64,000 nt of DNA from NCBI RefSeq assembly GCF_011758655.1, contig NZ_JAAMPA010000001.1, forward strand, positions 372,001 to 436,000, in the 5' to 3' direction. Origin of the DNA: Modestobacter marinus (GTDB lineage: Bacteria > Actinomycetota > Actinomycetes > Mycobacteriales > Geodermatophilaceae). A model generated the notes under the pieces. That model did not search any database. It had not been told where the DNA came from and worked only from the letters and a program-made list of their open reading frames with translations. A program made the translations under genes and the position numbers. This document shows, in pieces, positions 4,916 through 27,374 of this stretch. The stretch's first letter is position 1; the number at the start of each line of letters is the position of its first letter.

Positions 4916-6361
4916 TCAGGCGCGGGGCGCGAGCGCCGGGACCCGCTCGCGCACCAGCCGCTTGATCCGCCGGACGGCGGAGTCCCGAGCGCCTCGCAGA
5001 CCGGTGAACTCGTTGAACGGCAGGTCCAGCAGCTCCGGCCAGGCCCGGGAGAGGACGTCGTCGCCCAGCCGCTCGGACCACCGGTGCTCCAGCGGCAGCG
5101 CCAGCATCGCCTCGAACAGCGTCCGGCCGGCGAACGGCGAGAGCTCGAACCGCGAGGTGCGGTTGCCGTAGTGGCCCGGACCCGCCCAGCAGGACAGCCG
5201 TTGTTCGACGTAGGCCAGCTCGAGCACGGTCGGGTACGGCAGGTCCGGCAGTTCGGCGAGCCAGCGGCCGGCGTGCTCCAGGTAGACCGGGAGGGCCGGC
5301 AGCCGGAGCCGCCGCAGCAACGTCTCCGGGGACACCGGGCCGTCGTCCGGGTCGCCCGGCCGGTACGTGTGCGCCCGGCCCACCTCACCGGCGGTGCCGG
5401 GGAGCAGCACCCGGGCAGGGTCCAGCTGGCGCAGCGTCTCGTGCGCCTGCCACAGCTCCCCGCCGACCGCGTGGCCGGTCACCGTGAGCCACTCGTCCAG
5501 CTCCTCCGGCCGGGTCGTGCGGACCGGGAGGAGGTCGTGCGCCAGCCCGTACCGGTCGGCCAGCCGGGTCGCCAGGTGTGTGTCCACGGTGGGCGGTCCG
5601 GGCTGGGCGAGGGTGAAGAAGACCGCCTCCGGCAGGACCTCCCGGGCGCAGCCCAGCAGCAGCCGGGAGTCCCGGCCGCCGGTCAGCGAGAGGGTGAGCG
5701 GGTGCACGGCGGCGACCGCGGCGATCGTGCGGCGCACCCCCTCGTGCACCACGGCGGCCACCTCGTCCCCGTCGGCGGTCCCCGGCACGGGCGGCAGCCA
5801 GTGCCGGGCGGTGCGCCAGGTGCGCAGGTCCAGCGAATGGTCGGCCTGCAGCCGGCGCGTCCCCACCGTGAGCGTGAGCCCGAAGGGCAGCCAGGTGCCG
5901 CGGTCCGGGAACCCGGTGACCTCGGCCAGCTCCGTGTCGAGCTCACCACCGATGAGGGCCGGGACGGAGGCGACGGTCCGCCGGTCCGCCGAGTGCACGG
6001 CGGCCAGCGAGCCGTAGGCGTCCAGGACGACGGTCGGTTCGTCGTCGGGCAGGAGCACGAGCAGGAAACGTCCGGCCAGCCGCCGGTGGAGCGCGTCCAC
6101 GGCGGGCCAGTCCAGTCGTGTCCGTTCGCCGGTGTCCAGCACGACCGGCCCGCCGGTCAGGACGCCGTCGAGCACCGGGTGCCCCAGGCACCAGCCGAGC
6201 GGGGCACCGGCACGGTCGAGCACGTCGACGACGGGCAGGCCGTGGGTGCCCAGCGTCCACCCGGAGCTGCTGCGGCGCACCCAGCCGGCCGGCACCCGGT
6301 CGCCGTCCTCGCTGAGCACGAACTGCCCGACGTGCGCGCTGCGCTCCACCGGCTCGGTCAC
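4916..6361 (-). CDS. Asparagine-synthase-like protein of the polysaccharide locus
   Basis: 481 residues. A PP-loop appears near residues 219-231 (LSLTGGRDSRLLL), the ATP-pyrophosphatase motif of asparagine synthase and lasso-peptide cyclase families, with SGGxDS altered to TGGRDS. The N-terminal ~200 residues resemble the body of an AsnB amidotransferase domain (LAGRFLLVLLPDDEPTVVL, SVPALIGG), but no nucleophilic Cys follows the initiator, so glutamine hydrolysis seems unlikely. Such proteins recur in exopolysaccharide clusters and probably activate a carboxylate for amide or ester formation on the glycan; this is an inference. GTG 6361 overlaps the upstream phosphatase stop by 4 nt (GTGA), so it is the third gene of the kinase-phosphatase operon. 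Confidence 0.8.
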   Translation of the reverse strand: MTEPVERSAHVGQFVLSEDGDRVPAGWVRRSSSGWTLGTHGLPVVDVLDRAGAPLGWCLGHPVLDGVLTGGPVVLDTGERTRLDWPAVDALHRRLAGRFLLVLLPDDEPTVVLDAYGSLAAVHSADRRTVASVPALIGGELDTELAEVTGFPDRGTWLPFGLTLTVGTRRLQADHSLDLRTWRTARHWLPPVPGTADGDEVAAVVHEGVRRTIAAVAAVHPLTLSLTGGRDSRLLLGCAREVLPEAVFFTLAQPGPPTVDTHLATRLADRYGLAHDLLPVRTTRPEELDEWLTVTGHAVGGELWQAHETLRQLDPARVLLPGTAGEVGRAHTYRPGDPDDGPVSPETLLRRLRLPALPVYLEHAGRWLAELPDLPYPTVLELAYVEQRLSCWAGPGHYGNRTSRFELSPFAGRTLFEAMLALPLEHRWSERLGDDVLSRAWPELLDLPFNEFTGLRGARDSAVRRIKRLVRERVPALAPRA

Positions 6362-6969
6362 GCCCGGACCGCGCCGTCCGCGGCGCGCGTGCGGGGTGCA
6401 CCGGCGGCGGCTGCCACCGTCGCCACGGCCTCCCGGATCCGCCGCACCGCGCGTGCGTGGTCCTCCGGCGACCGGCCGTAGGGGTCCTCGACGTCGTCGT
6501 CCGGGCCGGGCACCCGCCGGCTGCGCAGCCGGGGGGCGGCCGCGGTCAGCGTCGCCAGCCGCTCGGCCGGTCCGGCGCCCGCGACGTGCCCCTCGTCGAC
6601 GGCGAGCCCGGCCAGGGCCGCGAACTCGCGGAGGCTGAAGGTGCGGCGGAGCGCCAGCGGCGCCTGCTGCACCAGCTCCGACCGGTGGACCCGGGTCATG
6701 GTGAGGACGAGGTCGGCCTCAGACACGCCTTCGGGAGTGACCTGCCGGGCCCGGAAATCGGGCAGCGGGTCGCCGAGCGCCGCGGCCGCCCCGGCGTCCA
6801 GCCCGGCGCCGGTCAGCGCGGACAGCCCGGCGCTGGCCACCGTCACGTCGGCCACCGGGCCGAGCTGCTCGCGCAGCAGCGCCTCGGCGACCGGTGAGCG
6901 GCACACGTTGCCCGTGCACACCACGAGGACGCCGAAGGGGGTCCCCGACCGGGCGGCAGGCGCGGTCAC
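6358..6969 (-). CDS. Low-molecular-weight protein tyrosine phosphatase
   Basis: 203 residues. The P-loop CTGNVCRS gives the C(X)5R(S) active site at residues 18-25, and the general-acid loop is EDPYGRS near residue 165, both canonical for LMW-PTP. It should dephosphorylate the adjacent BY-kinase and perhaps other surface-polysaccharide enzymes, as Wzb/Wzc pairs do. It starts with GTG at 6969 overlapping the kinase stop by 4 nt and ends overlapping the asparagine-synthase-like gene by 4 nt, so translation is coupled. At 203 residues it is longer than the ~150-residue family core; the extra length lies in a linker before the DPYG loop. Confidence 0.92.
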   Translation of the reverse strand: MTAPAARSGTPFGVLVVCTGNVCRSPVAEALLREQLGPVADVTVASAGLSALTGAGLDAGAAAALGDPLPDFRARQVTPEGVSEADLVLTMTRVHRSELVQQAPLALRRTFSLREFAALAGLAVDEGHVAGAGPAERLATLTAAAPRLRSRRVPGPDDDVEDPYGRSPEDHARAVRRIREAVATVAAAAGAPRTRAADGAVRA

Positions 6970-8414
6970 GGCCGGCCGCGTAGCCCGGCGCTGCCGGCGG
7001 TCGGGGCAGCCAGGACCGGTGCCGGGACCCGGGTCGGGGCGCTGCCGGCGACACCGTGGCGGGGCCGGTAGTCGTAGGCCTGCTCCTTGCGTTCGACCTG
7101 GTTCAGGACCACGCCGAGCACGGTGGCCCGGACCGTCTCCAGCACCTGGAGGCTCTCGGTCACCTGGGCCCGGCGGGCCCGCACGGCGTTGACGACCAGG
7201 ACGACGCCGTCGGCGACGCGGGAGAGCACGGCGCCGTCGGCGACCGGGAGCAGCGGTGCGCTGTCGAGGACCACGTGGTCGTAGGTGCCGCGCAGCTGGT
7301 CCAGCACCGCGGCCATCGCCGGGGACCCGAGCAGCTCCGTGGGGTTCGGCGGCAGCGGTCCGGCCGCCAGCACCTGGAGCCCCGAGGACCCCCAGTCCTG
7401 GGCCACGTCGGCCACCGCGGCGTGGCCCAGCAGCACGGAGGTCAACCCGACGGAGCCCTCGATGCCCAGGACGCCGTCCAGCGACGGCCGCCGGAGGTCG
7501 GCGTCCACCAGCAGCACCCGGGCACCCGTCTCGGCCAGCGCTGCGGCGAGGTTGGCCGAGACGGTGGACTTGCCCTCGGCCGCCACCGCGGAGGTGACCA
7601 GCAGCACCCGACCGCCGGCCCCGTCGGTCCGCACCCCGGGCAGGGACAGGAACTGCAGGTTGGTGCGCAGCTGCCGGAAGGACTCCGCCTGCGGGGCGTG
7701 CGGGTCCGCCTCGACGACCACGGGGCGCTCCGTCCCCTTCGTGCGGACGGCGCCGATCGTGCCGATGAGCGGCCGGTCGGTGAGGGCGGCCAGCGTCCCG
7801 GTGTCCCGTACCCGGGTGTCCAGTGCCGCGCGGAGCAGCAGCAGGGCGCAGCCCAGCACGAGCCCCGCGACGAGCCCGGCGAGCGCGTACAGGGTCGTGT
7901 TCGGCGCCGCCGGTCGCACCGGCACCTCGGCCGGGGCGACGGTGGTCGCCTGCACGGTCGGCTCCCCGTCGGCGTCCTCCGGCGCGAGTTCCTCGACGGT
8001 GCGGGACAGCGTGTCCACCACGGCGTCGGCGATGCGGGCGCTGCGGACGGCGGAGGTGTCGGTCACCGCGACCTCCACGATCACGGTGTCCACCGGCGCG
8101 GAGGCCTGCACCCGACCGGCCAGCGCCGACACGCCCATCGGCAGTCCCAGCTCGTCGATGACCGGCTGGAGCACGGCCGGGGTGGTGGCCAGCTCGGCGT
8201 AGGAGGTCACCTGGTTCTGCGTGAACGTCGAGCCCTGCACCAGGTCGGAGGCGGTGTCGCCGTACTGGAGGGAGAAGTAGACGCTGGCCGTGGACCGGTA
8301 GGTCGGCGCGGTGGTCAGGGCCCAGGCCAGCCCGGCCAGCAGACCGACGAGCGCCGCCGCGGTCGCCCACCGCCACCGGCGCCGCAGCACCGCCATCAGC
8401 TCACCGAGTTCCAT
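6966..8414 (-). CDS. Wzz-type chain-length regulator fused to BY-kinase
   Basis: 482 residues. Wzz domain: TM1 at about residues 17-36, an extracytoplasmic region, and TM2 near 172-195. A CpsD/CapB-type tyrosine kinase follows: Walker A-like SAVAAEGKSTVSANLA near 270-285, Walker A' VLLVDADLRRPS, and Walker B HVVLDSAPLL. The tail has only two tyrosines (QAYDYRPRH), a short autophosphorylation cluster compared with Wzc. It controls polysaccharide chain length together with the phosphatase encoded directly downstream. The ATG at 8414 is preceded by GGGGAG. It diverges from the fusion gene at 8,667 across a 252-bp intergenic region that should hold both promoters. Confidence 0.93.
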   Translation of the reverse strand: MELGELMAVLRRRWRWATAAALVGLLAGLAWALTTAPTYRSTASVYFSLQYGDTASDLVQGSTFTQNQVTSYAELATTPAVLQPVIDELGLPMGVSALAGRVQASAPVDTVIVEVAVTDTSAVRSARIADAVVDTLSRTVEELAPEDADGEPTVQATTVAPAEVPVRPAAPNTTLYALAGLVAGLVLGCALLLLRAALDTRVRDTGTLAALTDRPLIGTIGAVRTKGTERPVVVEADPHAPQAESFRQLRTNLQFLSLPGVRTDGAGGRVLLVTSAVAAEGKSTVSANLAAALAETGARVLLVDADLRRPSLDGVLGIEGSVGLTSVLLGHAAVADVAQDWGSSGLQVLAAGPLPPNPTELLGSPAMAAVLDQLRGTYDHVVLDSAPLLPVADGAVLSRVADGVVLVVNAVRARRAQVTESLQVLETVRATVLGVVLNQVERKEQAYDYRPRHGVAGSAPTRVPAPVLAAPTAGSAGLRGRP

Positions 8415-8666
8415 GCTCTCCCCACCTGACCGAGCCGCCTCGTCGTGCGGTCCGACACCGTCGGCCGGACCCGGCGACGGAGCGAGACGGACCGTCGAGG
8501 CCTGTCACTCCGAGCAGTCTCGGCCATCCGGGCGGCCGACCCCGGGCGACGACGGCCCCTCCCACCCCATCGGGTCACCGCCGGCCCGGAACTCGCCGCC
8601 GGACGACCCCAGCGGCCCACCGACCGGTGAAGATCGAGGTCAACCGGTCGGTCAGGAGGTCCCGCA

Positions 8667-11054
8667 GTGCAGCCCAGCGAACTCGTCGCGGCGCTGGCCC
8701 GACGCTGGGCCGTCCTCATCGTCATGGCCCTCGTCGGCGGCGTCGCCGGCCTGCTGGTGTCCGCCGCCGCCCCGACGACCTACCGCGCGAGCACCTCGCT
8801 GTTCGCCGGGATGTCCCAGGTGTCCGCGGCCTCCGGCCTGGGCAACAGCTCGCTGGTGGCGCGGGAGCTGCTGCCCTCGCTGGCTGCGGCGGGCCGCACG
8901 GCCGCCGTGCTGCAACCGGTCGTCGACGAGTTGGGGCTCGCCGGTGGCCCGACCGGACTGGCCGCCGACGTCGAGGTCACGGTCGGCGAGGACGTCGCCG
9001 TGCTGACCGTCGCGGCCACCGCCCCGACCCCCCGGCAGGCCGCCGCCGTGGCCGGCGGCGTGGTCGAGCAGCTGCGGGCGCTCGCCGACGGGCAGTACAC
9101 CGACGCCGGTGGCCGGCCGTCCCTGCAGCTGGTGACCATCACACCGGTCGTCGAGCCGCGGACGCCGTCGGGCCTGCCCTCCTCCCGGGCGGCCCTGGCC
9201 GGTGGGTTGCTGGCCATGGCCGCCGCCGCCCTGGTCATCGGGCTGCGCGAGGCCTGGGACCCCCGCGTCCGGACCGCCGGCGACCTCGCCGGGCTGACCG
9301 CCGTCCCCGTGCTGGCCGAGGTGGATCGCGCCGCCGTCCGGCTGCCCTGGACACCCCCGGCCGGTCCGGACCTCCGCGCGGCGAGCACCGAGCGGCTGGG
9401 CTGGCTGCTCACCGGCCTCCCCGGGGCAGCGCAGGGCGCACGGATCGGACTGGTCGGCGCACCGGCGGACCTGGCAGGCCCGGACCAGACCGCCCCGCAC
9501 GCGCCCCGGACGGTCCCCGTCGGGCTCGACCGGCTGGCGGCGGACCGTTCCGCGGTGGCCGGCATCGACGGCCTGGTCGCGGTCGTCGACGTCCGCCGCG
9601 CGACCCGCGGCGGGGTGGCCCGACTGCTGGCCGCGGTGGATGCCTCCGGCCGCCCGGTGCTCGGCGCCGTCCTGGACGGGGTGCTGTCACCGGCGGCGGA
9701 CCGGCGGACCCGCTGGCTCGCTGGGCTCTGCGGCGACGCGGCCGGGTCGCGGTACGGGCGGGCCCGTCCGGGCGAGTCGGCCGGCCCCGCGCGGTCGACC
9801 AGGGTGGTCGCCCTCCTCGCCGTCCTCGCCCTGGGCCTGGACCAACGGCTCCCGGTCGAGACCGACACCGGGCTGCTCGCCGCGGCCCTGCTGCTGCCCG
9901 TGTGGATCGCGCCGATCCTCCGCCACCGGGGCACCCGCTGGCTGACCGGCCTGGCCGCCGTGGCCCTCGCCTGTGGGGTGCTCCTGACCCTGGCCAACTC
10001 GGTGGAGCACGACTTCGCTCCGCGGCAGGCGTTGGCCACCAGCCTGTCCGTCCTCGGGGCGCTCGGCGCGATCGGGCTGCTGCTGTGGGCTCGGACGGTG
10101 TGGCCGCTGGGCGTCGTCGGGGTCACCTACGGGGTCGGCGCCCTGGTCAGCGGGGTGCTGGACGTCCCCGGCTCGGACAACGCCTACAAGTTCGAGCTGT
10201 CCTTCCCGGTGACCATCATCGTGCTGTCGCTGCTGGTCGGCCGGGTCCGCCCCCTGCTCTCGGTGCTGGCGCTCGGGGTGCTGGGACTGTTCAACATCGT
10301 CAACGACGCCCGCAGCGCCTTCGGCTTCTGCGTGATCGCGGCCGGGCTCGTCCTCTGGCAGGCCCGGTCGACCCGGGAGCCCGACCGACCGCGGCCACTG
10401 CGCACCGTGCTGCTGCTGGCGTCGGCCCTGGTGGGCGCCTACGCGGCGATCACCCAACTGCTCGTCTCCGGTGCCCTGGGTGCACAGGTGCAGGCCCGCT
10501 CGATCACCCAGATCGAGCAGACCGGGACCCTGCTGCTCGGTGGCCGGCCGGAGTGGACCGCCACCTGGGCGCTGATGCAGGAGAACCCGTTGGGCTTCGG
10601 GCTCGGCACCGTGCCCGCAGCCGGCGACATCGCCCTGGCCAAGCAGGGCTTCGCCGTCACGCACGTGCCCACCGCCGAGGGCTACATCGAGCACTACATG
10701 TTCGCCGGCCGCTTCGAGCTGCACTCGGTGATCGCCGACCTCTGGTCCAACGCCGGCCCGGCCGGCCTGCTCTGGGGCCTCCTGCTGGGCGGCCTGCTGG
10801 TCACGTCCCTGGTCCGCCAGCTGAGCCGGCGGAGGGCGTCCGCGCTGACCTGCCTGCTCGTGCCCGCGAGCCTCTTCTGGCTGGCCTTCGGCCCGCTTCC
10901 GGCGAACCTCCCCGACATCGCCATGACGCTCGGTCTGGTGCTGCCGCTGCGGGAGGCACTGCCGGGGAGGCGGGTGCCGCCACGGCCGGCCGGTGCCCGA
11001 CCGGTCGACCGCGGCGAGGCCGAGCGGGAGACCGCGGTCAGCGTCCTCCGGTAG
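8667..11054 (+). CDS. Wzz / degenerate BY-kinase / Wzy-like polymerase fusion
   Basis: 795 residues in three parts. Residues 1-195 are a Wzz domain with TM1 near 15-35 and TM2 near 172-193. Residues ~200-370 align in order with the BY-kinase of the neighbouring gene (RIGLVGAPADLAG in place of the Walker A strand, then LVAVVDVRRATRGGVARLL and VLGAVLDGVLS) but have no Walker A, A' or B residues, so they look like a pseudokinase. Residues ~380-770 hold about ten hydrophobic segments with a large loop (NPLGFGLGT, FELHSVIADLWSNAG), resembling O-antigen ligase/polymerase proteins. GTG 8667 has AGGAGGT six bases upstream. The 3' end overlaps the convergent glycosyltransferase by 17 nt. It is the only polymerase candidate in the locus. 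Confidence 0.85.
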   Translation: MQPSELVAALARRWAVLIVMALVGGVAGLLVSAAAPTTYRASTSLFAGMSQVSAASGLGNSSLVARELLPSLAAAGRTAAVLQPVVDELGLAGGPTGLAADVEVTVGEDVAVLTVAATAPTPRQAAAVAGGVVEQLRALADGQYTDAGGRPSLQLVTITPVVEPRTPSGLPSSRAALAGGLLAMAAAALVIGLREAWDPRVRTAGDLAGLTAVPVLAEVDRAAVRLPWTPPAGPDLRAASTERLGWLLTGLPGAAQGARIGLVGAPADLAGPDQTAPHAPRTVPVGLDRLAADRSAVAGIDGLVAVVDVRRATRGGVARLLAAVDASGRPVLGAVLDGVLSPAADRRTRWLAGLCGDAAGSRYGRARPGESAGPARSTRVVALLAVLALGLDQRLPVETDTGLLAAALLLPVWIAPILRHRGTRWLTGLAAVALACGVLLTLANSVEHDFAPRQALATSLSVLGALGAIGLLLWARTVWPLGVVGVTYGVGALVSGVLDVPGSDNAYKFELSFPVTIIVLSLLVGRVRPLLSVLALGVLGLFNIVNDARSAFGFCVIAAGLVLWQARSTREPDRPRPLRTVLLLASALVGAYAAITQLLVSGALGAQVQARSITQIEQTGTLLLGGRPEWTATWALMQENPLGFGLGTVPAAGDIALAKQGFAVTHVPTAEGYIEHYMFAGRFELHSVIADLWSNAGPAGLLWGLLLGGLLVTSLVRQLSRRRASALTCLLVPASLFWLAFGPLPANLPDIAMTLGLVLPLREALPGRRVPPRPAGARPVDRGEAERETAVSVLR

Positions 11055-12156
11055 CGGCGCCGGGCTCACCGGCACCCTGGAACATCCACTCGTCCGCAGC
11101 CAGCCGCCCGTCCCGGTGCGGCAGGTCGGCCAGCACCGAGGCCGCCGGCCGGCGGGCGCGCAGCGACCGGACCAGCCCGGCCGCGACCTCCGCCACCGGC
11201 GCGCCGGCGGGGAGCACCTCGTGGCCGTGCCCGGCCAGCCAGTCGGCGAGCCCGGTCTCCTCGGTGGTGACCACGGTGCACCCGTGGGCCAGCCCCTCGA
11301 CGACCGGCAGCCCCACCTGCTCGCGCCAGGTGGGGGTCCGCTGGGACAGCAGCACGAGGACCGCCGCCCGGCGCTGGTGGCGGTGCACCTCTTCCCGGGG
11401 CGGGGCCACGACCACCTCCACCCCCGGCACGCGGTCGGCCAGCTCACGGCCGGCGGACTCCAGCGGCCCCTGGCCCACCAGCGTCAACCGGGCCGCCGGG
11501 TGCTGCCGGACCACCTCCGGCCAGGCGGCGACCAGTTCACCGAGGCCCTTGCGTGCCGCGAAGGCGCCGACGAAGACGACCTGGTCGGGGTCGCGGATCG
11601 CCGGGACGGCGCAGTCGCACGGGGCCGGGAGGGCCGGGACGACCGCCGTCCGGCAGTCCTGCAGCTCGGGCCCGAGGTCCGCGGCGTAGAGCTCTGCTGC
11701 CGCCGAGGTGCCGAAGGCGAGCCGGTCGACCCGCCGGGCCACGAACCGGGTCATGGCCCGGTCCAGGCGGGCACGCACCCGCCGGCGGAGGTGCGCGTCG
11801 GGCTCGGGTGCGTAGTTGTCCCGGTTCTCGATGGCGTAGGAGACGACCAGCGTCCCGGTGCGGTGCAGCCGGGCGGAGAGGCCCGCCGCGGCCACCGCGA
11901 CGGAGGTCTTCCACAACCCGGGGCGCAGCAACGGCTCGTTCACCTCGACGGCGGCCAGCCGCGACCGCAGGATGGTGACCGCCAGCGAGGGGAGCCTGCC
12001 CCGGACCAGGTCAAGCCCCTCGGTCAGCGCCGGGTCGAAGTCGTAGCGCCAGCGCTGGTGCAGGATCGTCGCGGGGGGCAGCGCGTGCGCCCGCTCCAGG
12101 TGCGCGCTGCGCACCGAGCCGTAGACCCGGGCCCTGCGGTAGCGGGTCTTCCTCAC
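11038..12156 (-). CDS. Glycosyltransferase family 4
   Basis: 372 residues with a GT-B fold. The N-terminal half is an acceptor domain; the C-terminal half carries the nucleotide-sugar binding region (VVFVGAFAARKGLGELV, LTLVGQGPL) and the usual glutamate segment (REQVGLPVVEGLAHGCTVV). It should add a sugar to the lipid-linked repeat; donor and acceptor are unknown. It lies tail to tail with the polymerase fusion (17-nt overlap of coding ends) and head to head with the next glycosyltransferase. GTG 12156 lacks a clear Shine-Dalgarno sequence but has TACCCT nine bases upstream of the start, so the transcript may be leaderless. Confidence 0.88.
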   Translation of the reverse strand: MRKTRYRRARVYGSVRSAHLERAHALPPATILHQRWRYDFDPALTEGLDLVRGRLPSLAVTILRSRLAAVEVNEPLLRPGLWKTSVAVAAAGLSARLHRTGTLVVSYAIENRDNYAPEPDAHLRRRVRARLDRAMTRFVARRVDRLAFGTSAAAELYAADLGPELQDCRTAVVPALPAPCDCAVPAIRDPDQVVFVGAFAARKGLGELVAAWPEVVRQHPAARLTLVGQGPLESAGRELADRVPGVEVVVAPPREEVHRHQRRAAVLVLLSQRTPTWREQVGLPVVEGLAHGCTVVTTEETGLADWLAGHGHEVLPAGAPVAEVAAGLVRSLRARRPAASVLADLPHRDGRLAADEWMFQGAGEPGAATGGR

Positions 12157-12164
12157 AGCAGGTG

Positions 12165-12170
12165 AGGGTA
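12165..12170 (-). promoter_or_regulatory. -10 box TACCCT, probable leaderless promoter of 11038-12156
   Basis: TACCCT on the minus strand, 8 nt before the GTG at 12156, with no ribosome binding site between. The same hexamer precedes metG, the mannosyltransferase gene and the small gene at 61,990. Confidence 0.5.
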
Positions 12171-12251
12171 TCGGTACGCTGCAGCACCGGCCGGGCGCCG
12201 GCCGGCCGAGGTGGCTGCCTCCGGTCCCCCCACCGCAGAGGAGTCGACCGG

Positions 12252-13295
12252 GTGAGCCGACGGCTGACCGTGCTGCAGTCCTTCCCCGAGCCCCGCGCGA
12301 CGACCAACCCCTACGTCGTGACGCTCCGGCGGAGCCTCGACGCGCGGCCCGACCTCGAGGTGCTGACCTTCAGCTGGTCCCGGGCGCTGCGGGCCCGCTA
12401 CGACGTGCTGCACGTGCACTGGCCGGAGAACCTGCTCAAGGGGGGCACCCGAGGGCGCGCGCTGGCCCGGCGACTGCTGTTCGTGGCGCTGCTGGCCCGG
12501 CTCACGCTGCGGTCGACCCCGGTCGTGGCGACCGTGCACAACCTCCGGCCGCAGGAGGGCCTCCCCCGCTCCCAGCGGTTCCTGCTCGGGCTGCTCGGCC
12601 GGCGCGTCGCCGTCCGGGTGCTGCTCAACGAACAGACCCTGGTGCCCCCGGGGACGGCGGCCGTGACCGTCCTGCACGGGCACTACCGCGAGTGGTTCGC
12701 CGACCACCCCCGCCCGCCCCGAGAGCCCGGCCGGGTCGCCTACGTCGGGCTCATCCGGCCGTACAAGGACGTCGGTCGGCTGATCCGGGTGTTCGGCACC
12801 ACCGCGGACGCCGCCCCCTCGGCCCGGCTGCAGGTGGCCGGGCAGCCGCTGACCCCGGAGCTGGCCGACGAGCTGCACGCGGCGGCTGCCGCCGACCCCC
12901 GGGTGGAGCTGACGCTGGAGTTCCTGCCCGACGACCGGCTGGTCGACGCGGTCGGCCGCGCGACGCTCGTGGCCCTCCCCTACCGCGAGATGCACAACTC
13001 CGGTGCCGCGCTCATGGCGCTGTCCCTCGACCGGCCCGTCCTGGTCCCCCGTAACCCGGTCACCGACCTGCTCGCCGCGGAGGTGGGCGAGGAGTGGGTG
13101 CACCGCTATGACGGCGAGCTCAGCGGTGCCGTGCTGCTTCAGGCGCTGCAGCAGGCCGCGGACCACGAGCCGGGGTTGCGCCCGGACCTCGGACGGCGCG
13201 AGTGGGACCAGGCCGGCCGCGACCACGAGGACGCCTACCGGTGGGCCGTCCGGCTGCGGGGTCGGCGGCGGGACGCGGACCCCGAGCCGCACTGA
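12252..13295 (+). CDS. Glycosyltransferase, GT4-like
   Basis: About 347 residues. Rossmann-like N-terminal half with a YDVLHVHWPENLLKG segment and VATVHNLRPQEG, typical of GT4-type enzymes that act on diverse sugars; C-terminal half with RVAYVGLIRPYKDV and a YREMHNSGAALMALS donor-binding stretch. A longer frame opens at 12162, but GTG 12252 is preferred because GAGGAG lies eight bases upstream and VSRRLTVLQSFPEP begins at the first strand of the fold. It diverges from the GT4 at 11,038-12,156 and converges on the GT2 at 13,317, with a hairpin between the stops. Sugar specificity is not readable. Confidence 0.85.
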   Translation: MSRRLTVLQSFPEPRATTNPYVVTLRRSLDARPDLEVLTFSWSRALRARYDVLHVHWPENLLKGGTRGRALARRLLFVALLARLTLRSTPVVATVHNLRPQEGLPRSQRFLLGLLGRRVAVRVLLNEQTLVPPGTAAVTVLHGHYREWFADHPRPPREPGRVAYVGLIRPYKDVGRLIRVFGTTADAAPSARLQVAGQPLTPELADELHAAAAADPRVELTLEFLPDDRLVDAVGRATLVALPYREMHNSGAALMALSLDRPVLVPRNPVTDLLAAEVGEEWVHRYDGELSGAVLLQALQQAADHEPGLRPDLGRREWDQAGRDHEDAYRWAVRLRGRRRDADPEPH

Positions 13296-14267: not shown

Positions 14268-16408
14268 GGCTGGTCCTCTCCTGCGCCGGTGACCAGCTGG
14301 GCCACCCGGGCGCGGTACCGGTCCGGTGCGTGCCGCAGCCGGGCCTCCTCGGCGTCGGTCAGGGCATCGGCGGTCACGTCCGGCCACCGGGCGACGACCC
14401 GCTCGACGGCGTCGGCCCACGCCACCACGTCCTCCGGCGGGACCGCCTGGGCCGAGGCGCGCCCCGCGACGGCCTCCTGCAGACCACCGCAGGCGCTGAC
14501 CACGACCGGCCGGGCGGCCAGCACCGCCTCCACCGCCGTGTTGCCGAACGGCTCGGCCAGGACCGAGGGCACCAGGACCACGTCCGCACGGGCGAGCGCG
14601 TCCCAGACGTCGGGCACGAAGCCGGTCAGCTCGACCCGGTCGGTCAGCCGGGCGCCCGCCACCTGGTCGCGCAGCTGCTGCTCGAACCACTCGTAGCCGG
14701 GGAAGACCGCGCCCAGCAGCTGCAGCCGGGCGTCCACCCCCCGCGACACGAGCTCCGCCAGGACGGCGACGGCCACCTGCGGGCCCTTGCGGGGGGAGAG
14801 CCGCCCCACGAAGGCCAGCTGCACGGGCCCGCTCAGCCGGGACCGGGCGGGCTCGGTGCTGGGCGGGCCGCCCACGCCGTTGTCGACCAGCACCGCTCGC
14901 GCCCCGGTGCGCGGCAGCACGGCCGCGAGCACCGAGCGGCTGTACTCGCTGTTCACCAGGACCGTGCGCGCGGCCAGCGCGGGCAGGGCCAGCGCCAGGC
15001 GCACCGGGGCGGGAGCACGGTCCTCGGCCTCGTGCACGTGCAGCACCACCGGACGGCCGGCGACCCGGGCCAGCAACGGCCACAGCGGGAGGGTCTGGGT
15101 GTTCACGTAGACCGGACCCGAGCCGGTCCGCCGGAGCAGCCGCCAGGCCGGCCGTATCCCGGTCAGCAGGTCACCGGCCAGCCGCAGCGCGCCGCGGGGG
15201 GTCAGCGCGCTCTTGCGCAGCACCGGGGTCGGGCAGGTCTCGACCCGGGCCCCGCGTCCGCGCAGTTCCGCGGCGAGCGGGCCGTCGCCGGGGAGGGCCA
15301 CCACGACCGGGGCGCCGGCCTCGACCAGGCCGGTCACGGACTCCAGCAGCATGCGGTCGGAACCGTAGAGCTCGGCGCCCGGGTGCACCACCAGCACGGC
15401 CGTCGGCGTTCCGGTGCCGGTCCGGCCGGCACGGCGGGTGAGCAGCGCCCGGGCCGCGACGGCCAGGCCCTCCACCGAGCCGTGGACGGCGGCGAGCAGC
15501 AGGCCCGGCTGGTGCAGCAGCTGGCGGCGCCCGCCCCGCAGCAGGATCTCCCGGCTCACCGCGGGGGTGGCCCAGACCCACCGGAGCAGCTGGCGGCGTC
15601 CCAGGTTGCGGGCGGCGAACAGCAGCCGGTTGCGGCAGTTGTAGCGGTAGTAGAGGGCCGACTTCGCCCGCCCGCGCCGGGGGCCCTGGGTGCCGCCGGC
15701 GTCGTGCACCGCGACCAGGTCCGAACGGACCGTGAGCGTCCCGCCCGCGGCGAGGCAGCGGTGGCTGAACTCGACGTCCTCCCAGTACAGGAAGAAGTCC
15801 TCGGCCAGCCCACCGGCCCGGCGGAGCAGGTCGTCGTGCACCACGAGGCAGGCGCCGGTGAGCCACTCCTCGACCGGCCCGCCCGGCCGTGACCGGGGGC
15901 CGGCCGGGCGGCGTCCGCGGAGCCGGCCGGTGTCGGTGTAGAGCTGCGCGCCGTCGAAGAAGACGGCGCCCTCTGGGGTGACGATGCGCGGGCTGAGCAG
16001 GGCCAGCGGCTCCCGCAGGCTGTGCCGCCGCAGCTCCTCGACCACCGCGGGGGCGATGCTGGCATCGGGGTTGAGGAGAAGGAACGTGACGCAGCCGGCC
16101 TGCCGGGCAGCGTCGATGCCGGCGTTGACCGCTGCGCCGAAGCCCCGGTTGTCCGGCAGCGCGACGAGGTCCCAGCCCCGCGCGGCCGTGAGCGTCTCGA
16201 CGGCCTGCCGCTCCGCCGTGGAGGAGAAGTTGTCCACCACGACGACCCGGACCGACGGACCGGTCGGGTCGGCCCCCGCGAGGTTGGCCTCGATGAGGCG
16301 GGAGGACCCGTAGTTGACGACGACGAGGCCGAGCACGCCCGTCGCCTCGCCGGCCCGCTCGGCGGGGCCGGGCACGGGGCGCGTGCCCGACCGGAGCGTG
16401 CTGCTCAC
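14264..16408 (-). CDS. Bifunctional GT2-GT4 glycosyltransferase fusion
   Basis: 714 residues in one uninterrupted frame. Residues ~20-320 are a GT2 of the rhamnosyltransferase type: LVVVNYGSSRLIEANL, VVVVDNFSS, LLLNPDASIAP and DFFLYWEDVEFSHRC. Residues ~335-714 are a GT4 GT-B domain: VLVVHPGAELYGSDRMLLES, LAFVGRLSPRKGPQVA, and VLAEPFGNTAVEAVLAARPV with the E-x7-E region. Two transferases on one chain could add successive sugars without release. The start GTG 16408 has AGGAG upstream and overlaps the wzx stop by 4 nt. No internal stop or obvious second start site suggests a split gene. Confidence 0.88.
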   Translation of the reverse strand: MSSTLRSGTRPVPGPAERAGEATGVLGLVVVNYGSSRLIEANLAGADPTGPSVRVVVVDNFSSTAERQAVETLTAARGWDLVALPDNRGFGAAVNAGIDAARQAGCVTFLLLNPDASIAPAVVEELRRHSLREPLALLSPRIVTPEGAVFFDGAQLYTDTGRLRGRRPAGPRSRPGGPVEEWLTGACLVVHDDLLRRAGGLAEDFFLYWEDVEFSHRCLAAGGTLTVRSDLVAVHDAGGTQGPRRGRAKSALYYRYNCRNRLLFAARNLGRRQLLRWVWATPAVSREILLRGGRRQLLHQPGLLLAAVHGSVEGLAVAARALLTRRAGRTGTGTPTAVLVVHPGAELYGSDRMLLESVTGLVEAGAPVVVALPGDGPLAAELRGRGARVETCPTPVLRKSALTPRGALRLAGDLLTGIRPAWRLLRRTGSGPVYVNTQTLPLWPLLARVAGRPVVLHVHEAEDRAPAPVRLALALPALAARTVLVNSEYSRSVLAAVLPRTGARAVLVDNGVGGPPSTEPARSRLSGPVQLAFVGRLSPRKGPQVAVAVLAELVSRGVDARLQLLGAVFPGYEWFEQQLRDQVAGARLTDRVELTGFVPDVWDALARADVVLVPSVLAEPFGNTAVEAVLAARPVVVSACGGLQEAVAGRASAQAVPPEDVVAWADAVERVVARWPDVTADALTDAEEARLRHAPDRYRARVAQLVTGAGEDQP

Positions 16409-17841
16409 CTGGTGTCTCCTCCTGTTGCGCCGTCCACGGCGACCTCCTGCGGTGCCGGCTGAGCGGCCGCCGCGGCACGCAGCCTGCGGCGCACGTACCA
16501 GGCGCTGGCCAGCACCTGGGAGCAGAGGACGCCGACGATCGAGCCGATCACCGGCCCGGCTGCCCCCAGCGGCCCGGCGAGGAACCACGACAGCGCGACG
16601 TTGAGCGGCAGCGCGCAGACGATGCCCATCGCCTGGAACCGGAGCCCGCGGGCGTCGGTCATGAACATGCCGAGCGGGTACTTCACCGCCTGCAGCACCA
16701 TCAGCACCGCGAAGCTGACGAGCAACAGCGGGCCGAGCGTGATCCTGCCCCCGGAGGCCAGCTCGGTCAGCAGCGGCGCCGCCAGCGCGACCGCGAGGCC
16801 CATCGCCGCCGCCACGGCCCCGAACACCGCGGCCATCGGGAACGGCGAGCGGTCCCGTCCCCGGGCCCGGGCCCGGGCGAAGACGGGCCAGAGCGTGACC
16901 CCGGCGGCGCTGACCACCGCCCAGATGGGGGTGAACATCTGCGACGCCAGGTTGTACTCGGCCAGCACCTCGGTGCTCGACCGGTGGCTGAGCACGATCC
17001 GGTCGGTCTGCATCGCGATCGGCAGGGCGATCATCTGCACCAGCATCGGCCAGGCGACGTCCAGCACCTGCCCTCCCCGCTCGGTGCGCAGGTGGCGGAC
17101 CCGGCGGAGCACGTCCCGCGCGGCGGGGCGCAGTGCCCGGGCGGCGAGGAGGGTGCACACCCCGGCCAGCAGGAGCGTCGTGGCGTACGGGACGACGGGG
17201 ACCGCCGACCCGGCGGGCAGGTCAACCCAGAGCAGGACGGCGAGGACGGCGAGGACCAGCGGCGTCTGGAGACCCAGCACGGCGATGGAGACGTGGTTGC
17301 GGCCCAGCCCGGAGAGCACCCGCTGGCCGATCCCCAGGGGCATGGCCAGGGCGATCAGGGCCAGGCACGCACCCGCCGCGAGCGACCCCGATCCGGGCAT
17401 CAGGCCCTTCCCCAGCAGCGCCGGCCACAGGCCCAGGGAGGTGATCGCGGCGGCGAACAGCAGGAGCACCACCGCGGAGCCGACGAGCACCCGCACGGCG
17501 GTGACCAGCACCCGGCGGACGTGCTCGTCGCTGCGCGGGGAGTCCGACGCCCCGACGGCGTTCATGACCGCGGCCGACATGCCGAGGTCCGCGAAGGGCA
17601 GCAGGGCGCCGATCCCGACGAGCAGCCCGTACTGGGCGAAGGCGGCCTCGCCGTACTCCTCGATGATCAGCCGGGTCACGACGATGCCGAGCAGCGCGGA
17701 CACCGGCAGCACCAGCAGCCGGACCCCGCCGCTGCGGGCCATGGCGGTCCAGACGCTGCGCCGGTCACCGGAGTCGGCCGGGCGGGGGTCGGGACCGGCC
17801 TCGACCGTCGGTCCGGGAGGCGGCTCGACCGTCCTGGTCAC
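16405..17841 (-). CDS. Wzx-like polysaccharide flippase (MATE/MOP superfamily)
   Basis: 478 residues with about 12-14 hydrophobic segments and short basic loops, the pattern of the polysaccharide transporter branch of the MOP superfamily. The N-terminal ~40 residues are cytoplasmic and Pro-rich; the first helix is VRLLVLPVSALLGIVVTRLI, followed by EEYGEAAFAQYGLLVGIG. It should flip the undecaprenyl-linked repeat across the membrane. The longest frame goes to 17934; GTG 17841 is chosen because GGGGGAGG lies just upstream. First gene of a three-gene operon with 4-nt overlaps. Confidence 0.87.
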   Translation of the reverse strand: MTRTVEPPPGPTVEAGPDPRPADSGDRRSVWTAMARSGGVRLLVLPVSALLGIVVTRLIIEEYGEAAFAQYGLLVGIGALLPFADLGMSAAVMNAVGASDSPRSDEHVRRVLVTAVRVLVGSAVVLLLFAAAITSLGLWPALLGKGLMPGSGSLAAGACLALIALAMPLGIGQRVLSGLGRNHVSIAVLGLQTPLVLAVLAVLLWVDLPAGSAVPVVPYATTLLLAGVCTLLAARALRPAARDVLRRVRHLRTERGGQVLDVAWPMLVQMIALPIAMQTDRIVLSHRSSTEVLAEYNLASQMFTPIWAVVSAAGVTLWPVFARARARGRDRSPFPMAAVFGAVAAAMGLAVALAAPLLTELASGGRITLGPLLLVSFAVLMVLQAVKYPLGMFMTDARGLRFQAMGIVCALPLNVALSWFLAGPLGAAGPVIGSIVGVLCSQVLASAWYVRRRLRAAAAAQPAPQEVAVDGATGGDTR

Positions 17842-17999
17842 GCCGGCCTCCCCCCTCGTCCGTGGTCGTCGCCCGCGCCATCGTGCGCCGGGGCCCTGAC
17901 GAGGCTGCCAGGCCGGAGCCGCCGCAGGGGCCAAGCGGCCGAGACCCTCACCCGAAGTGGTGCGCGCCGGGGACCGGGTCGACGGACCCGGCGGTCGGT

Positions 18000-20900
18000 T
18001 CAGACGGCCGGCTGGGTGCCGGCAGCGCCGGCCCAGTAGTCGGTCACCGAGACCGTCGTCGGGACCGCGGTCGCCGACCCCGACAGGTACGTCGCCAGCC
18101 CGACCGCACCGGTGGCCTGCAGCTCCGCGGTGTCATCGGTGGCCGAGACCTGCCAGTCCGCCGGCTCCGCCGAACCCTCCAGCCAGGCCTTCCCCTGCAG
18201 CGTCGTCGTCCCGGCACCGGAGACGTCCACCCGGACCTGCAGCACCGTCCCCGGCACATAGGTCACCCCCGGCAGCACCCCCGACCGCAGGGTCCGCTCC
18301 GCGCCACCGACCACCCGGGACACCCCCAGGCTCACCCGACCATCGGCCAGGAACTTCACCACGCCCCGGTAGAACGTCGACCCGTTGCGCCGGGTCGTCA
18401 GGTACACGTACGTCCCCGCACCCGTCGGCGCCGCGTCCAGCCGGATGCCCGCCTGCACCGCCACGTCCTGCACCTGCACCGCGTTCAGGTACGCCGCCGC
18501 CGACCCACCGGCCCGCGCCATCGTCAACTGCGCCACACCACCGGACACCGACGTCGTCCCACCCGCCGGCGTCCACGCCCCACCGGTCTCGGCCTGGCCC
18601 AGCCCCGCAGCCACCGACCGCTCGAAGGAGTCCACCGCCAACGCCGGCGCCACCGGCTCCTCCGGGACCTCAGGGGTCTCGGGCTCCTGCGGGGCCTCGG
18701 GCTCCTGCGGGGTCTCCGGCTCCTGCGGGGTCTCCGGCTCCTGCGGGGTCTCCGGCTCCTGCGGGGCCTCGGGCTCCTGCGGGGCCTCGGGCTCCTGCGG
18801 GGCCTCGGGCTGCTGCGGGGTGGCCGGGGTGGCCGGCCGGGTACCGGCGACGCCGGCCCAGTAGTCGGTCACCGACACCGTCGTCGGGACCGCGGTCGCC
18901 GACCCCGACAGGTACGTCGCCAGCCCGACCGCACCGGTGGCCTGCAGCTCCGCAGTGTCATCGGTGGCCGAGACCTGCCAGTCCGCCGGCTCCGCCGAAC
19001 CCTCAAGCCAGGCCTTCCCCTGCAGCGTCGTCGTCCCGGCACCGGAGACGTCCACCCGGACCTGCAGCACCGTCCCCGGCACATAGGTCACCCCCGGCAG
19101 CACCCCCGACCGCAGGGTCCGCTCCGCGCCACCGACCACCCGGGACACCCCCAGGCTCACCCGACCATCGGCCAGGAACTTCACCACGCCCCGGTAGAAC
19201 GTCGACCCGTTGCGCCGGGTCGTCAGGTACACGTACGTCCCCGCACCCGTCGGCGCCGCGTCCAGCCGGATCCCCGCCTGCACCGCCACGTCCTGCACCT
19301 GCACCGCGTTCAGGTACGCCGCCGCCGACCCACCGGCCCGCGCCATCGTCAACTGCGCCACACCACCGGACACCGACGTCGTCCCACCCGCCGGCGTCCA
19401 CGCCCCACCGGTCTCGGCCTGGCCCAGCCCCGCAGCCACCGACCGCTCGAAGGAGTCCACCGCCAACGCCGGCACCACCGGGCCCTCCGGGACCTCCACC
19501 GGCGCGATCACCGTCACCGGCTGCTGCACCGATGCGGTCGCACCGTCCTCGTCGGTCACGGTCAGCGTCACCGGGTACGTCCCCGCCTCTGCATAGCCGT
19601 GCGAGACGGTGGCCCCGCTCCCGGTCGAGCCGTCGCCGAACTCCCACGCCCAGTCGACGACCGAGCCGTCGGTGTCGGCCGAGGCCGACCCGTCGAAGGA
19701 GGCGACCAGGTCCGCGACCGACGAGGCGAACGCCGCCTGCGGTGCCGTGTTGACCGGCGGTGCGGTCACGGTCACCGAGCTGCTCTGCTGCGCGGTGGCA
19801 CCGTCGTCGTCGGTCACCGTCAGGGTGACCGGGTACGTGCCGGCCTCGGCGTAGGTGTGCGAGACGGTGGTCCCGGTGGCCGTCGCACCGTCACCGAGGG
19901 TCCAGGACCAGGAGAGGACCTGCCCGTCGCGGTCGCTCGAGCCGCTGGCGTCCAGCGTCGCCGACAGGCCGTCCACCGCACTGGTGAAGGCCGCCGTCGG
20001 CGCGACGTTGGGGGCCACACCGGTCGTGCCCACGGTGTGGTGGCGCGCCACCACGTCGGCGGGGAGCGCCGTCGGGTAGACGGCGACCTCGTCGATCGAC
20101 CCGTTGAAGTACGGGGCGCCGCTCCAGGACCGGTCCCCGCCGATCCGCCAGTAGCCGCGGTAGGCCTGCGCCTTGGTCACCGCAGCGCGTGACCCGACGA
20201 GCCGGCCGTCGACGTACAGCGCCATGCCGTTCGGCCCCAGCGACGCGGCGACGTGGTGCCAGCGCCCGTCGTTGTACCGGGTCGAGCTGCGGACCACCTG
20301 CGACGAGCCCGGGTAGACGCCGAAGGACACCCGGCCGGTCCCGTCCATGTACACGTGGCGGTCGTAGCTGCCGCTCAGCCCCGTGTTCGCACTGCCGAAC
20401 CCGACGATCTTGCCGCCGGACCAGCTGGTGGTCTGGAACCAGGCCTCCACGGTGAAGGTCTGCGGGCCGTCGATCGCGGTGCGCGTGGCAGCCAGACCCT
20501 GCGTGCCGTCGAACTCGAACGCGGTGTCGGTGTCGCCGGCGAGCGCACCGGACCGGCCGGCGGTGACGCCGGCGCCCACGGTCAGGTCCTGGCCGCCCGC
20601 GTGGTCGTACGCGGTGGTCGACCCGGGCGCCTCCCCGAGCGGCCAGTGGTCCTGGGCCCCGTCGGCGGCGACGGTCTCCGCGTACGGCCGGGCCGGTGCG
20701 GCCGGCCCCCCGGCCGTCTCGACGGTGGTCCAGTCGGACGTCGACCGGTTGCCCATCGGGTCGGTCACCGTGACCCGGTACCGGTGCGAGCCGGCCGGGA
20801 GACCGCGGTCGATGAAGGTGAGCACCGGCGCGTTCCAGAACCGGGACGCCCGGGTGACCGTGTGCACCGGCGTCGTCGTGTCGCCGTCCCGGTAGACCCG

Positions 20901-22367: not shown

Positions 22368-22579
22368 TCGTTTCCCCACTCGGTCGAAGAGGTCACCCTG
22401 AGCCAACAGCCAGGGCGACTCCCGGACACTAAGCGTGAGCACCGACCCGGCCCCATCCCCCGTTCCGGTGACCGTACGTAGGGATCACCCCCCGTTCGGG
22501 AACTCCTGCAACTCTGCGTGCCCTTGTGGTTGCACTGGGTATGACACAGCATGAGAACCGAGTTCGGTCCCGGACGCAT
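22368..22579. promoter_or_regulatory. Leader/promoter region of the secreted protein gene
   Basis: The 322-bp gap 22,368-22,689 has no gene. This part should hold the promoter of the minus-strand secreted protein gene. It contains two related motifs, ATCCCCCGTTCCGGTGACC near 22,455-22,473 and CACCCCCCGTTCGGG at 22,486-22,500. The second shares its CCCGTTCGGG core with 4,871-4,885. No confident -35/-10 pair was assigned. Confidence 0.4.
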
Positions 22580-25682: not shown

Positions 25683-27188
25683 TCAGTAGGCGCCGGACGC
25701 CGAGACCACCGCGCGGGCGGTCTTCCAGAGGATCTGCACGTCCAAGGCCAGGGACCAGTTCTCCACGTAGCGGAGGTCCAGCCGGACGGCCTCCTCCCAC
25801 GGCAGGTCGCTGCGACCGGAGATCTGCCAGAGCCCGGTGAGGCCCGGCTTCACCAGCAACCGGCGGCTGACCGAGGTGTCGTAGCGCGCGACCTCGTCGG
25901 GCAGCGGCGGGCGCGGGCCCACCAGCGACATGTCCCCGATGAGCACGTTGACCAGCTGGGGCAGCTCGTCCAGGGAGAGCCGGCGCATCCAGCGCCCGAC
26001 CGGCGTCACGCGCGGGTCCTGCCGCATCTTGAACAGCAGCCCGTCGGCCTCGTTGCCCGCCGCGAGCCCGGCGACCTGCTGGTCGGCGCCCACCACCATG
26101 CTGCGGAACTTCAGCATCGTGAAGTGCTGCCCGCCGAGCCCGACCCGCTGCTGGCGGTAGAGGACCGGCCCGGGGCCGGACAGCCGGACGGCCAGGGCGA
26201 GCGCGAGCAGGACCGGGGCTAGGAGGAGCAGGGCGGCGGAGGCGACCGACCGGTCGAGTGCCCCCTTCACCACCCGGCGCCAGCCCTCGAACCGGGGCTG
26301 CTCGACCGAGAGGAGGGGCAGCCCGTCGAAGGGCCGGATGTGCAGCCGCGGCCCGGCCACCTCGACCAGCCCGGGGGCCACGAGCAGCTCCAGGCCGGAG
26401 CCCTCGAGCTGCCAGGACAGGGTCCGCAGGTACTGGGACGCCGTCTCGCTGGCCGAGGTGACGGCGATCGTGTCGGCCCCGACCCGGCCGGCGAGCCCGA
26501 GGACGTCGTCCAGGCCGGCGACCGGCAGGCCGGCCACCCGGGCCACCCGGGCGCGGTCGTCCGGTGTCACGCAGAGGCCGACGACCTCCAGCCCGGCGTG
26601 CCGGGTGTGGTGCAGCCGGTCGACCAGGTCGAGGGCGGCTCCTCCGCGCCCGACGACGACGACGCGCTTGACGCAGCGCCCGTCCATCCGCCGGCGGTGC
26701 AGCACCCGCCGGGCGGCGTAGCGCCCGACCAGCGTCGCCGCGGTGAGCGCCGGGACGGCGAGCACGACGAGCGCGCGGCTGAGGTCGAGCTCGGCGGCGT
26801 AGCTGACGAAGCCCATCCCGGCGAGCAGCAGCAGACCGGCCCGGCCGACGCGACGGAACTCGTCGCTGCCGACGCCGAACCAGCGCTCCTCGTAGGCGCC
26901 CGTGACCGCGAGCAGCGCCGGCCAGGCGGCGACCAGGCTCAGACCGGCCCAGGCCAGGACGCTGCCCAGCACCGGCCCGTCGTGGGCGAGGAGGACCACG
27001 GCCGCGGCCGACGCCGCGATCAGCGCCTCACCGAGGACCAGCCCGGCGCGGTGCCGCCGGACCCAGCGGGCGGTCCCCCGGGCGGGGGCGACGGCGGCCG
27101 GCAGCCGCAGCACGGTCGGGGTGGACGGGACCGCCGCCGACGGTGCGTGACCGATCAGGTCGGTCGTCTCCGCACGTTCGAGCAGCAT
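25683..27188 (-). CDS. Initiating polyprenyl glycosylphosphotransferase (WbaP type)
   Basis: 501 residues. N-terminal half: four to five transmembrane helices and a CoA-binding-like domain (KRVVVVGRGGAALDLVDRLH). C-terminal ~200 residues: the catalytic domain, with MLKFRSM, DPRVTPVGRWMRRLSLDELPQ, GDMSLVGPRPPLP and KPGLTGLWQISGRSDL. It transfers a sugar-1-phosphate from UDP-sugar to undecaprenyl phosphate, the first step of the repeat unit. ATG 27188 lies after GGGGG; the frame to 27299 lacks homologous sequence. Separated by 208 bp of non-coding DNA from the glycosyltransferase operon. It forms the right end of the polysaccharide locus; pth follows. Confidence 0.94.
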   Translation of the reverse strand: MLLERAETTDLIGHAPSAAVPSTPTVLRLPAAVAPARGTARWVRRHRAGLVLGEALIAASAAAVVLLAHDGPVLGSVLAWAGLSLVAAWPALLAVTGAYEERWFGVGSDEFRRVGRAGLLLLAGMGFVSYAAELDLSRALVVLAVPALTAATLVGRYAARRVLHRRRMDGRCVKRVVVVGRGGAALDLVDRLHHTRHAGLEVVGLCVTPDDRARVARVAGLPVAGLDDVLGLAGRVGADTIAVTSASETASQYLRTLSWQLEGSGLELLVAPGLVEVAGPRLHIRPFDGLPLLSVEQPRFEGWRRVVKGALDRSVASAALLLLAPVLLALALAVRLSGPGPVLYRQQRVGLGGQHFTMLKFRSMVVGADQQVAGLAAGNEADGLLFKMRQDPRVTPVGRWMRRLSLDELPQLVNVLIGDMSLVGPRPPLPDEVARYDTSVSRRLLVKPGLTGLWQISGRSDLPWEEAVRLDLRYVENWSLALDVQILWKTARAVVSASGAY

Positions 27189-27374
27189 GGGGCCCCCAGG
27201 TTCTCCGCAGTGATCACGCACAGTCCGCCGGCGACACGCAGGAGGGGCACGCATCCGGGACGGACCCGGACGAGCCGCTGCACTGGTGACGCTCAGCAAC
27301 CATCACAGGCGGTGACGAGCGGGGGCAACGCAGCCGGCGGTGCTTCACCCGATGGGGACGGGCCTCCGGCCGCT

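Follow-up and report, generated by a model that had tools for sequence, protein, structure and literature searches.

A gene joining a Wzz domain, a degenerate BY-kinase and a Wzy/WaaL-type polymerase domain in Modestobacter marinus and its relatives

Results

A single gene encodes three domains

The window (that is, the whole stretch of 64,000 nucleotides analysed here, part of the 5.1-Mb genome of Modestobacter marinus) contains on its forward strand a frame of 795 codons without a stop, in which a Wzz domain, a remnant of a BY-kinase and a polymerase-type domain follow one another:

8654..8659 (+): ribosome-binding site AGGAGG, 7 bases 5' of the GTG start (read from the sequence)
8667..11054 (+): fused gene Wzz (PCP-2) - degenerate BY-kinase - Wzy/WaaL-type polymerase, 795 aa, GTG start (common to 13 genomes)
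8667..9260 (+): Wzz domain, residues 1-198 (Pfam Wzz 4.6e-6 for the Wzz part alone; WzzE and Wzc matches; secondary structure)
9261..9686 (+): degenerate BY-kinase, residues 199-340, Walker A, A' and B absent (fold match, profile comparisons, motif scan)
9792..10946 (+): Wzy polymerase domain, residues 376-760, WaaL-like fold (structure match)

The frame 8667-11054 (+) is a real three-part gene. Open fused frames in 13 distinct genomes rule out a sequencing or frame artefact, and most of the starts chosen for the relatives' fusions have purine-rich stretches before them (judged by eye); the closest named relative at this locus, Modestobacter sp. VKM Ac-2977, shares 52% identity. A preliminary description, drawn from the letters of the window, had proposed the order Wzz, dead BY-kinase and polymerase-like domain as well as a search for the same fusion in related genomes. 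The search yielded the 13 genomes (window included), and predicted-structure matches back every part of the proposed make-up, with Wzc, the CapAB, Etk and BceF kinases, and WaaL, respectively. Pfam scores of the full-length fusion are under the curated cut-offs, which we count against our best explanation, and NCBIfam gave weak matches alone, far under cut-off. When the same 11 genomes are compared (without L042, which is cut at a contig end, and L054), mean identity is 0.41 for the fused Wzz, 0.39 for the dead kinase and 0.55 for the polymerase part. An internal methionine kept at the domain junction, and thus able to release a free Wzy, is absent from the alignment (inspected by eye for Met codons only).

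The Wzz domain belongs to a clade of its own

The Wzz domain is predicted, as a single chain, to consist of a helix (residues ∼14–34), an extracytoplasmic part (∼35–171) and a second helix (∼172–197), so that two transmembrane helices flank an α/β extracytoplasmic domain as in the hairpin of Wzz/PCP-2 proteins. In a Wzz tree, all fused domains fall into a single clade (100/100) and the Wzz domains of the divergently encoded Wzz-BY-kinases, described below as partners, into another (100/99). This tree was built without five duplicate or cut segments and without L075 (116 aa), the L040 and L050 fusions being added; STD_L076, L066, L068 and OTH_L028 are of odd composition, and OTH_L004 sits on a long branch. 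With its strong support, this separation rules out a recent duplication of the divergent partner as the source of the fused Wzz. Across the 11 genomes compared, mean identity is 0.41 for fused Wzz and 0.59 for partner Wzz; this greater divergence of the fused domain, together with the separate clade, is unlike what one would expect if both contributed to one ring interface and were equally constrained.

The middle part is a degenerate BY-kinase

The preliminary description had taken the middle part for a BY-kinase that lost Walker A, A' and B, a view that stood up to several lines of analysis. Structure prediction yields a fold resembling the P-loop BY-kinases of the Wzc/CapB type, of which the PCP linker strand, a helix, the first strand with a collapsed P-loop and the last β-α-β unit are present. 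Comparison of the middle-segment profile with the partner-kinase profile aligned the last β-α-β unit over 38 columns (E 8.1e-7, score 46.9), whereas 100 column-shuffled profiles scored at most 15.8 (0/100 reaching the real score) and three control comparisons gave 10.9–17.2. The L054 middle segment in the kinase profile starts too late, and aligning the fused kinases jointly with those of the partners misplaces the last strand; the profile alignment was therefore taken as the basis. A search of PDB sequences with the fusion profile returned CapA/CapB chimaeras, VpsO and Wzc, all weakly (E 0.003–0.6) and with no single CapA/CapB stretch significant by itself. In the resulting alignment, residues 197-290 correspond to the PCP linker up to Walker A' and residues 294-340 to the last unit, while ∼90 chimaera residues between these stretches are without counterpart and the P-loop is shortened. 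Judged from this alignment, the fused kinase has lost ∼90 core residues in addition to the motif residues. In the partner, Walker B stands directly before the last unit, and thus falls in the part that the fusion would be missing.

The motif scan agrees: GK[ST] before the Wzy part and a Walker B pattern are each found in 0/13 fusions. The EX2RX2R pattern occurs in 2/13 dead kinases and is absent in 11/13, which counts against a mixed ring as discussed below. Likewise, no tyrosine-rich C-terminal tail is present in any of the 13 fusions (0–1 Tyr in the middle region), the polymerase coming next instead. Twelve of the 13 degenerate kinases contain no lysine in the middle region. The remnant is nevertheless still conserved, its mean identity among the 11 genomes being close to that of the fused Wzz and gaps taking up 8% of the cells of its core. 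With a BY-kinase fold and the catalytic motifs lost, it has the features of a BY pseudokinase of the EcpK type. That the middle part is an unrelated linker is excluded by the structure match, the profile-profile comparison and the PDB-sequence search.

The C-terminal part resembles WaaL

WaaL (7tpg) is the best solved match of the predicted structure of the C-terminal part. When this part was folded alone, chains of the MFS and ABC types scored well under WaaL, which excludes a transporter and agrees with the polymerase/ligase-like character noted at the outset. WaaL may merely be the nearest template, since no Wzy structure is among the matches listed. Residues R549, R627 and H686 are invariant in 16 aligned sequences; a catalytic role is suggested by their invariance and by the histidine and arginines proposed for WaaL-like enzymes in the available text of PMC12800693. 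The Pfam family Wzy_C matches the window fusion with 23.1 bits (curated cut-off 31.7) and 6/12 fusions at E <= 0.1, the best at 5.8e-7. A PDB profile search with the Wzy part gave a chance hit only. Two plasmid records match the polymerase part alone.

An intact Wzz-BY-kinase and a polysaccharide cluster surround the fusion

The neighbourhood comprises the following genes:

6361..6930 (-): low-molecular-weight protein tyrosine phosphatase (Wzb-like), downstream of the partner (LMWPc 7.5e-21)
6966..8414 (-): partner, an intact Wzz-BY-kinase with Walker A, A', B, EX2RX2R and YDY tail (TIGR01007 4.4e-50; motifs)
8415..8666 (no strand): divergent intergenic region between partner and fusion (read from the sequence)
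11041..12156 (-): GT4 glycosyltransferase of the cluster (Glyco_trans_1_4 4.9e-17)
12162..13292 (+): GT4 glycosyltransferase of the cluster, weak match (Glyco_trans_1_4 5.3e-5, below cut-off)
16408..17934 (-): Wzx-type flippase (Polysacc_synt 1.6e-8)
25686..27299 (-): initiating polyprenyl-phosphate sugar-1-phosphate transferase (Bac_transf 1.1e-66)

An intact, divergently oriented Wzz-BY-kinase adjoins the fusion in all 11 loci with enough flank (L042, cut at a contig end, and L054 stand outside the partner counts), the gaps being roughly 222–274 bp in 11/11 with partner starts approximate. Walker A, A', EX2RX2R and a YxY tail are found in 11/11 partners, as is Walker B (by eye). The complete motif set bears out the proposal that the divergent kinase at 6,966-8,414 is active, activity here being a prediction.

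We infer from the content of the cluster that the fusion has polymerase activity on lipid-linked repeat units. No second Wzy_C match was found in the cluster, and the only other one of the genome lies ∼554 kb away. That match and one further Wzz gene (G000:C1, 936751-937158 (-) and 938882-939526 (+)) lie 1.7 kb from each other on opposite strands, once more in a divergent arrangement. Adjoining the phosphatase gene is a weak asparagine-synthase-like protein (4916-6361 (-); E 0.026, below cut-off). A protein of 1480 aa (18000-22442 (-)) contains beta-propeller-like, LamG and PKD domains and ends in two near-identical copies of a ∼200-residue domain with EPQEPEAP-type repeats between them (by eye); the unfused cluster of L038 encodes a protein built similarly (by eye).

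In the genomes scanned, the fusion occurs mainly in one family

The 13 genomes with the fusion are the window and members of Modestobacter, Blastococcus and Geodermatophilus, one further relative and one metagenome-assembled genome (MAG); they correspond to the window, ten full loci, one cut MAG locus and L054 (same family). In the contig scan, a single-protein query retrieved nothing, while a four-row alignment query retrieved the fusion loci. Among the 96 genomes of the family scan, the polymerase is present in 12, fused in 11 and stand-alone in one; five of the 11 were read directly and six were equated with known loci by equal frame length, two of these six also sharing identical Wzz segments. 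The order scan (397 genomes) found the polymerase in 22, namely the same 11 fused plus 11 stand-alone or fragmentary copies, and the class scan (394 genomes) in 14, where besides the window none was seen fused and L074 is cut by a contig end. The three genome sets overlap; in the order and class scans up to four candidates were scored per genome, and at least 355 and at least 360 genomes, respectively, are without a match to the Wzy part. Contig ends limit the stand-alone calls: L074 has 22 residues before the match, and L070 and L073 are fragments from one genome. Across these scans of family, order and class, fusions were thus seen in the family only, plus the Frankiales MAG L042. Within the window's genus, 4/18 genomes of the family scan carry the polymerase, from which we conclude that the cluster is patchy. 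A distant stand-alone version (33% identity) occurs in G070 of the same family (L062, 1459-2757 (+)).

The fusion likely originated from tandem genes

In the Wzy tree, which was built without L070, L072, L073 and L084, the fused Wzy domains form one clade (100/98); L062, L071 and L082 sit on long branches, a pair of which meet. Among 22 stand-alone loci with flanks of ∼1.5 kb or less, a same-strand Wzz-BY-kinase lies directly upstream of the polymerase in four (L075-L078) and a divergent one is present in two (L066, L068), weak kinase matches beside the stand-alone Wzy at L063 and L080 being left uncounted. Candidate Wzy starts lie 4–34 bases past the kinase stop in 3/4 of the tandem loci. Whether Walker A-A' is scored in the tandem kinases depends on the spacing allowed: it is found in L075 and L078 only, and by a looser pattern in L075-L078. 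In the Wzy tree, no unfused polymerase is placed closer to the fused clade than that of the tandem locus L076 (90/70); in the Wzz tree, L076, the composition of which is odd, groups with L078 on the fused side (88/82). Since the nearest unfused polymerase is encoded directly downstream of a Wzz-BY-kinase and both trees agree, fusion of such a tandem Wzz-BY-kinase/Wzy pair is the likely source, with moderate support (90/70, 88/82).

Six relatives lack the fusion but encode a protein closely related to the partner. In four of them (four scanned) its neighbour is a Wzy_C protein, divergent in three, so that these three have a plain Wzy_C protein in the fusion's place. A stand-alone Wzy_C gene diverges from the gene of the partner-type Wzz-BY-kinase in the fusion-free loci L087 (6278-7642 (-)), L088 (7410-8705 (-)) and L089 (8892-10334 (+)). 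On L085-L090 and L094, nothing matched the Wzy profile of the window's subfamily, and the Wzz profile hit a single frame per locus on L085-L090 and none on L094. As the Wzy_C proteins of L087-L089 are not matched by the window's Wzy profile, one gene place may hold exchangeable polymerases.

Discussion

We lean, if only slightly, towards the view that the fusion is a repeat-unit polymerase tethered into a co-polymerase ring that consists mostly of the active partner, and that it arose once from tandem genes. Within a Wzx/Wzy-type cluster for a surface polysaccharide, it would then polymerise the repeat units and carry a co-polymerase subunit of its own on the same chain. This chain would start in the cytoplasm, cross the membrane with one Wzz hairpin, continue as the cytoplasmic dead kinase and enter the membrane as the WaaL-fold polymerase. 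The order of the segments fits this topology: the hairpin leads back into the cytoplasm, where the kinase remnant is located and from where the polymerase sets out. The hairpin and the dead kinase would probably fill one (or few) places in a ring of intact Wzz-BY-kinases, with the polymerase beneficially tethered at or in the ring lumen and with the active subunits and the phosphatase driving the assembly cycle. A single origin, in which a Wzz-BY-kinase gene was joined to a directly downstream Wzy gene, appears probable, and we propose that the fused kinase decayed because a second Wzz-BY-kinase supplied the activity.

Published work on related systems provides the frame for this model. According to the accessible part of PMC10030265, WzzE and WzyE of an enterobacterial system occur at ∼8:1 with WzyE in the lumen, and the cavity of a Wzc ring has been modelled with moderate confidence round one Wzy (PMC12881504, available sections). 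The BY pseudokinase EcpK has been proposed to act as a PCP scaffold, and its authors argue, in the available text of PMC12004946, that BY pseudokinases are independent of active BY-kinases. This argument disfavours the docking of the pseudokinase on the active kinase that had been suggested in the preliminary description. The fixed one-to-one ratio of chain-length control and polymerisation suggested there holds within the chain and perhaps not within the complex, considering the ∼8:1 ratio of WzzE to WzyE (same part of PMC10030265) and the 11/11 partners.

Alternatively, the fusion might form a ring by itself, with one polymerase per Wzz subunit and thus several per ring, and the partner acting in trans or at another step. 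The chain itself sets a ratio of one polymerase to one Wzz subunit, a scaffold that coordinates several Wzy is one of two models in the available text of PMC12881504, fused and partner Wzz fall into separate clades, and a conserved junction methionine for the release of free Wzy was not seen in the alignment. A fusion-only ring would contain as many polymerases as subunits, however, while the one measured system is at ∼8:1 (PMC10030265, as far as available), the lumen could hardly take eight domains of the size of WaaL, and an intact partner adjoins 11/11 checkable copies. We consider such a ring unlikely; the measured ratio and the active Wzz-kinase beside all checkable fusions render a mixed ring the more likely arrangement.

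It is tempting to speculate further that each active ring contains one fusion as a minority subunit, the dead kinase marking an asymmetric place and the lumen holding exactly one polymerase. We offer this stricter version tentatively, as possible rather than probable. If true, the fusion would represent a genetically fixed answer to the stoichiometry problem of Wzx/Wzy systems.

Distinctly improbable is that Wzz and dead kinase serve only as a tether or as a remnant with a regulatory role, bringing the polymerase to the partner ring from the outside, for example by docking on the active kinase, without a subunit place. Both are more diverged (mean identities of 0.41 and 0.39) than the polymerase (0.55), EX2RX2R is scarce among the dead kinases, and a scaffold function has been proposed for a BY pseudokinase in the available part of PMC12004946. 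Yet a conserved pattern persists in the dead-kinase core at about the rate of Wzz and with few gaps, the Wzz hairpin is retained, and BY pseudokinases are argued in the same partial source to be independent of active BY-kinases. Finally, that the C-terminal part is a transferase of the O-antigen-ligase type, passing finished polymer to an acceptor, appears very improbable: WaaL is the best solved match and the Pfam family is named O-antigen ligase, but the fusion is the only Wzy_C match near the cluster, and four relatives have a stand-alone Wzy_C protein, possibly a ligase as well, beside a close partner relative.

How Wzz-type regulators and Wzy polymerases come together, and at which ratio, is a matter of debate, as is the site of chain growth, within the ring or among several polymerases; both models are named in PMC12881504 (available sections). 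The conserved fusion of these soil actinobacteria constitutes a natural test of the number of polymerases per controller ring: since one polymerase is joined to one regulator subunit, the count of fusion and partner subunits in the native complex would help to choose. The fusion also shows BY pseudokinases in a new setting, retained next to an active kinase, and provides structural studies of Wzy with a pair that is already tethered. No description of a Wzz-dead kinase-Wzy fusion was found in the open-licence literature among the matches listed.

Comparison with known systems emphasizes what is distinct about the architecture. When compared with Wzc (PCP-2a; 7nhr, 7nhs), the kinase of the fusion is shortened and devoid of Walker motifs and tyrosine tail, and the polymerase continues the same chain. 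Like WzzE-WzyE, the fusion unites chain-length regulator and polymerase in one unit; WzzE and WzyE, however, are two proteins at ∼8:1 (accessible part of PMC10030265), whereas the parts of the fusion are covalently joined. With EcpK the fusion shares a BY-kinase fold without catalytic motifs that works with a PCP, as described in the available text of PMC12004946. The single chains of PCP-2 and pseudokinase cited there are described with no polymerase attached, unlike the fusion, and EcpK is said there to be independent of an active kinase, whereas an active Wzz-kinase gene lies beside 11/11 checkable copies of the fusion. The C-terminal part, in turn, is akin to WaaL (7tpg) in its overall fold and in having invariant Arg and His residues such as those suggested for WaaL-like enzymes (PMC12800693, as available), but members of the WaaL/Wzy_C family are stand-alone proteins, whereas the polymerase of the fusion sits behind Wzz and a dead kinase.
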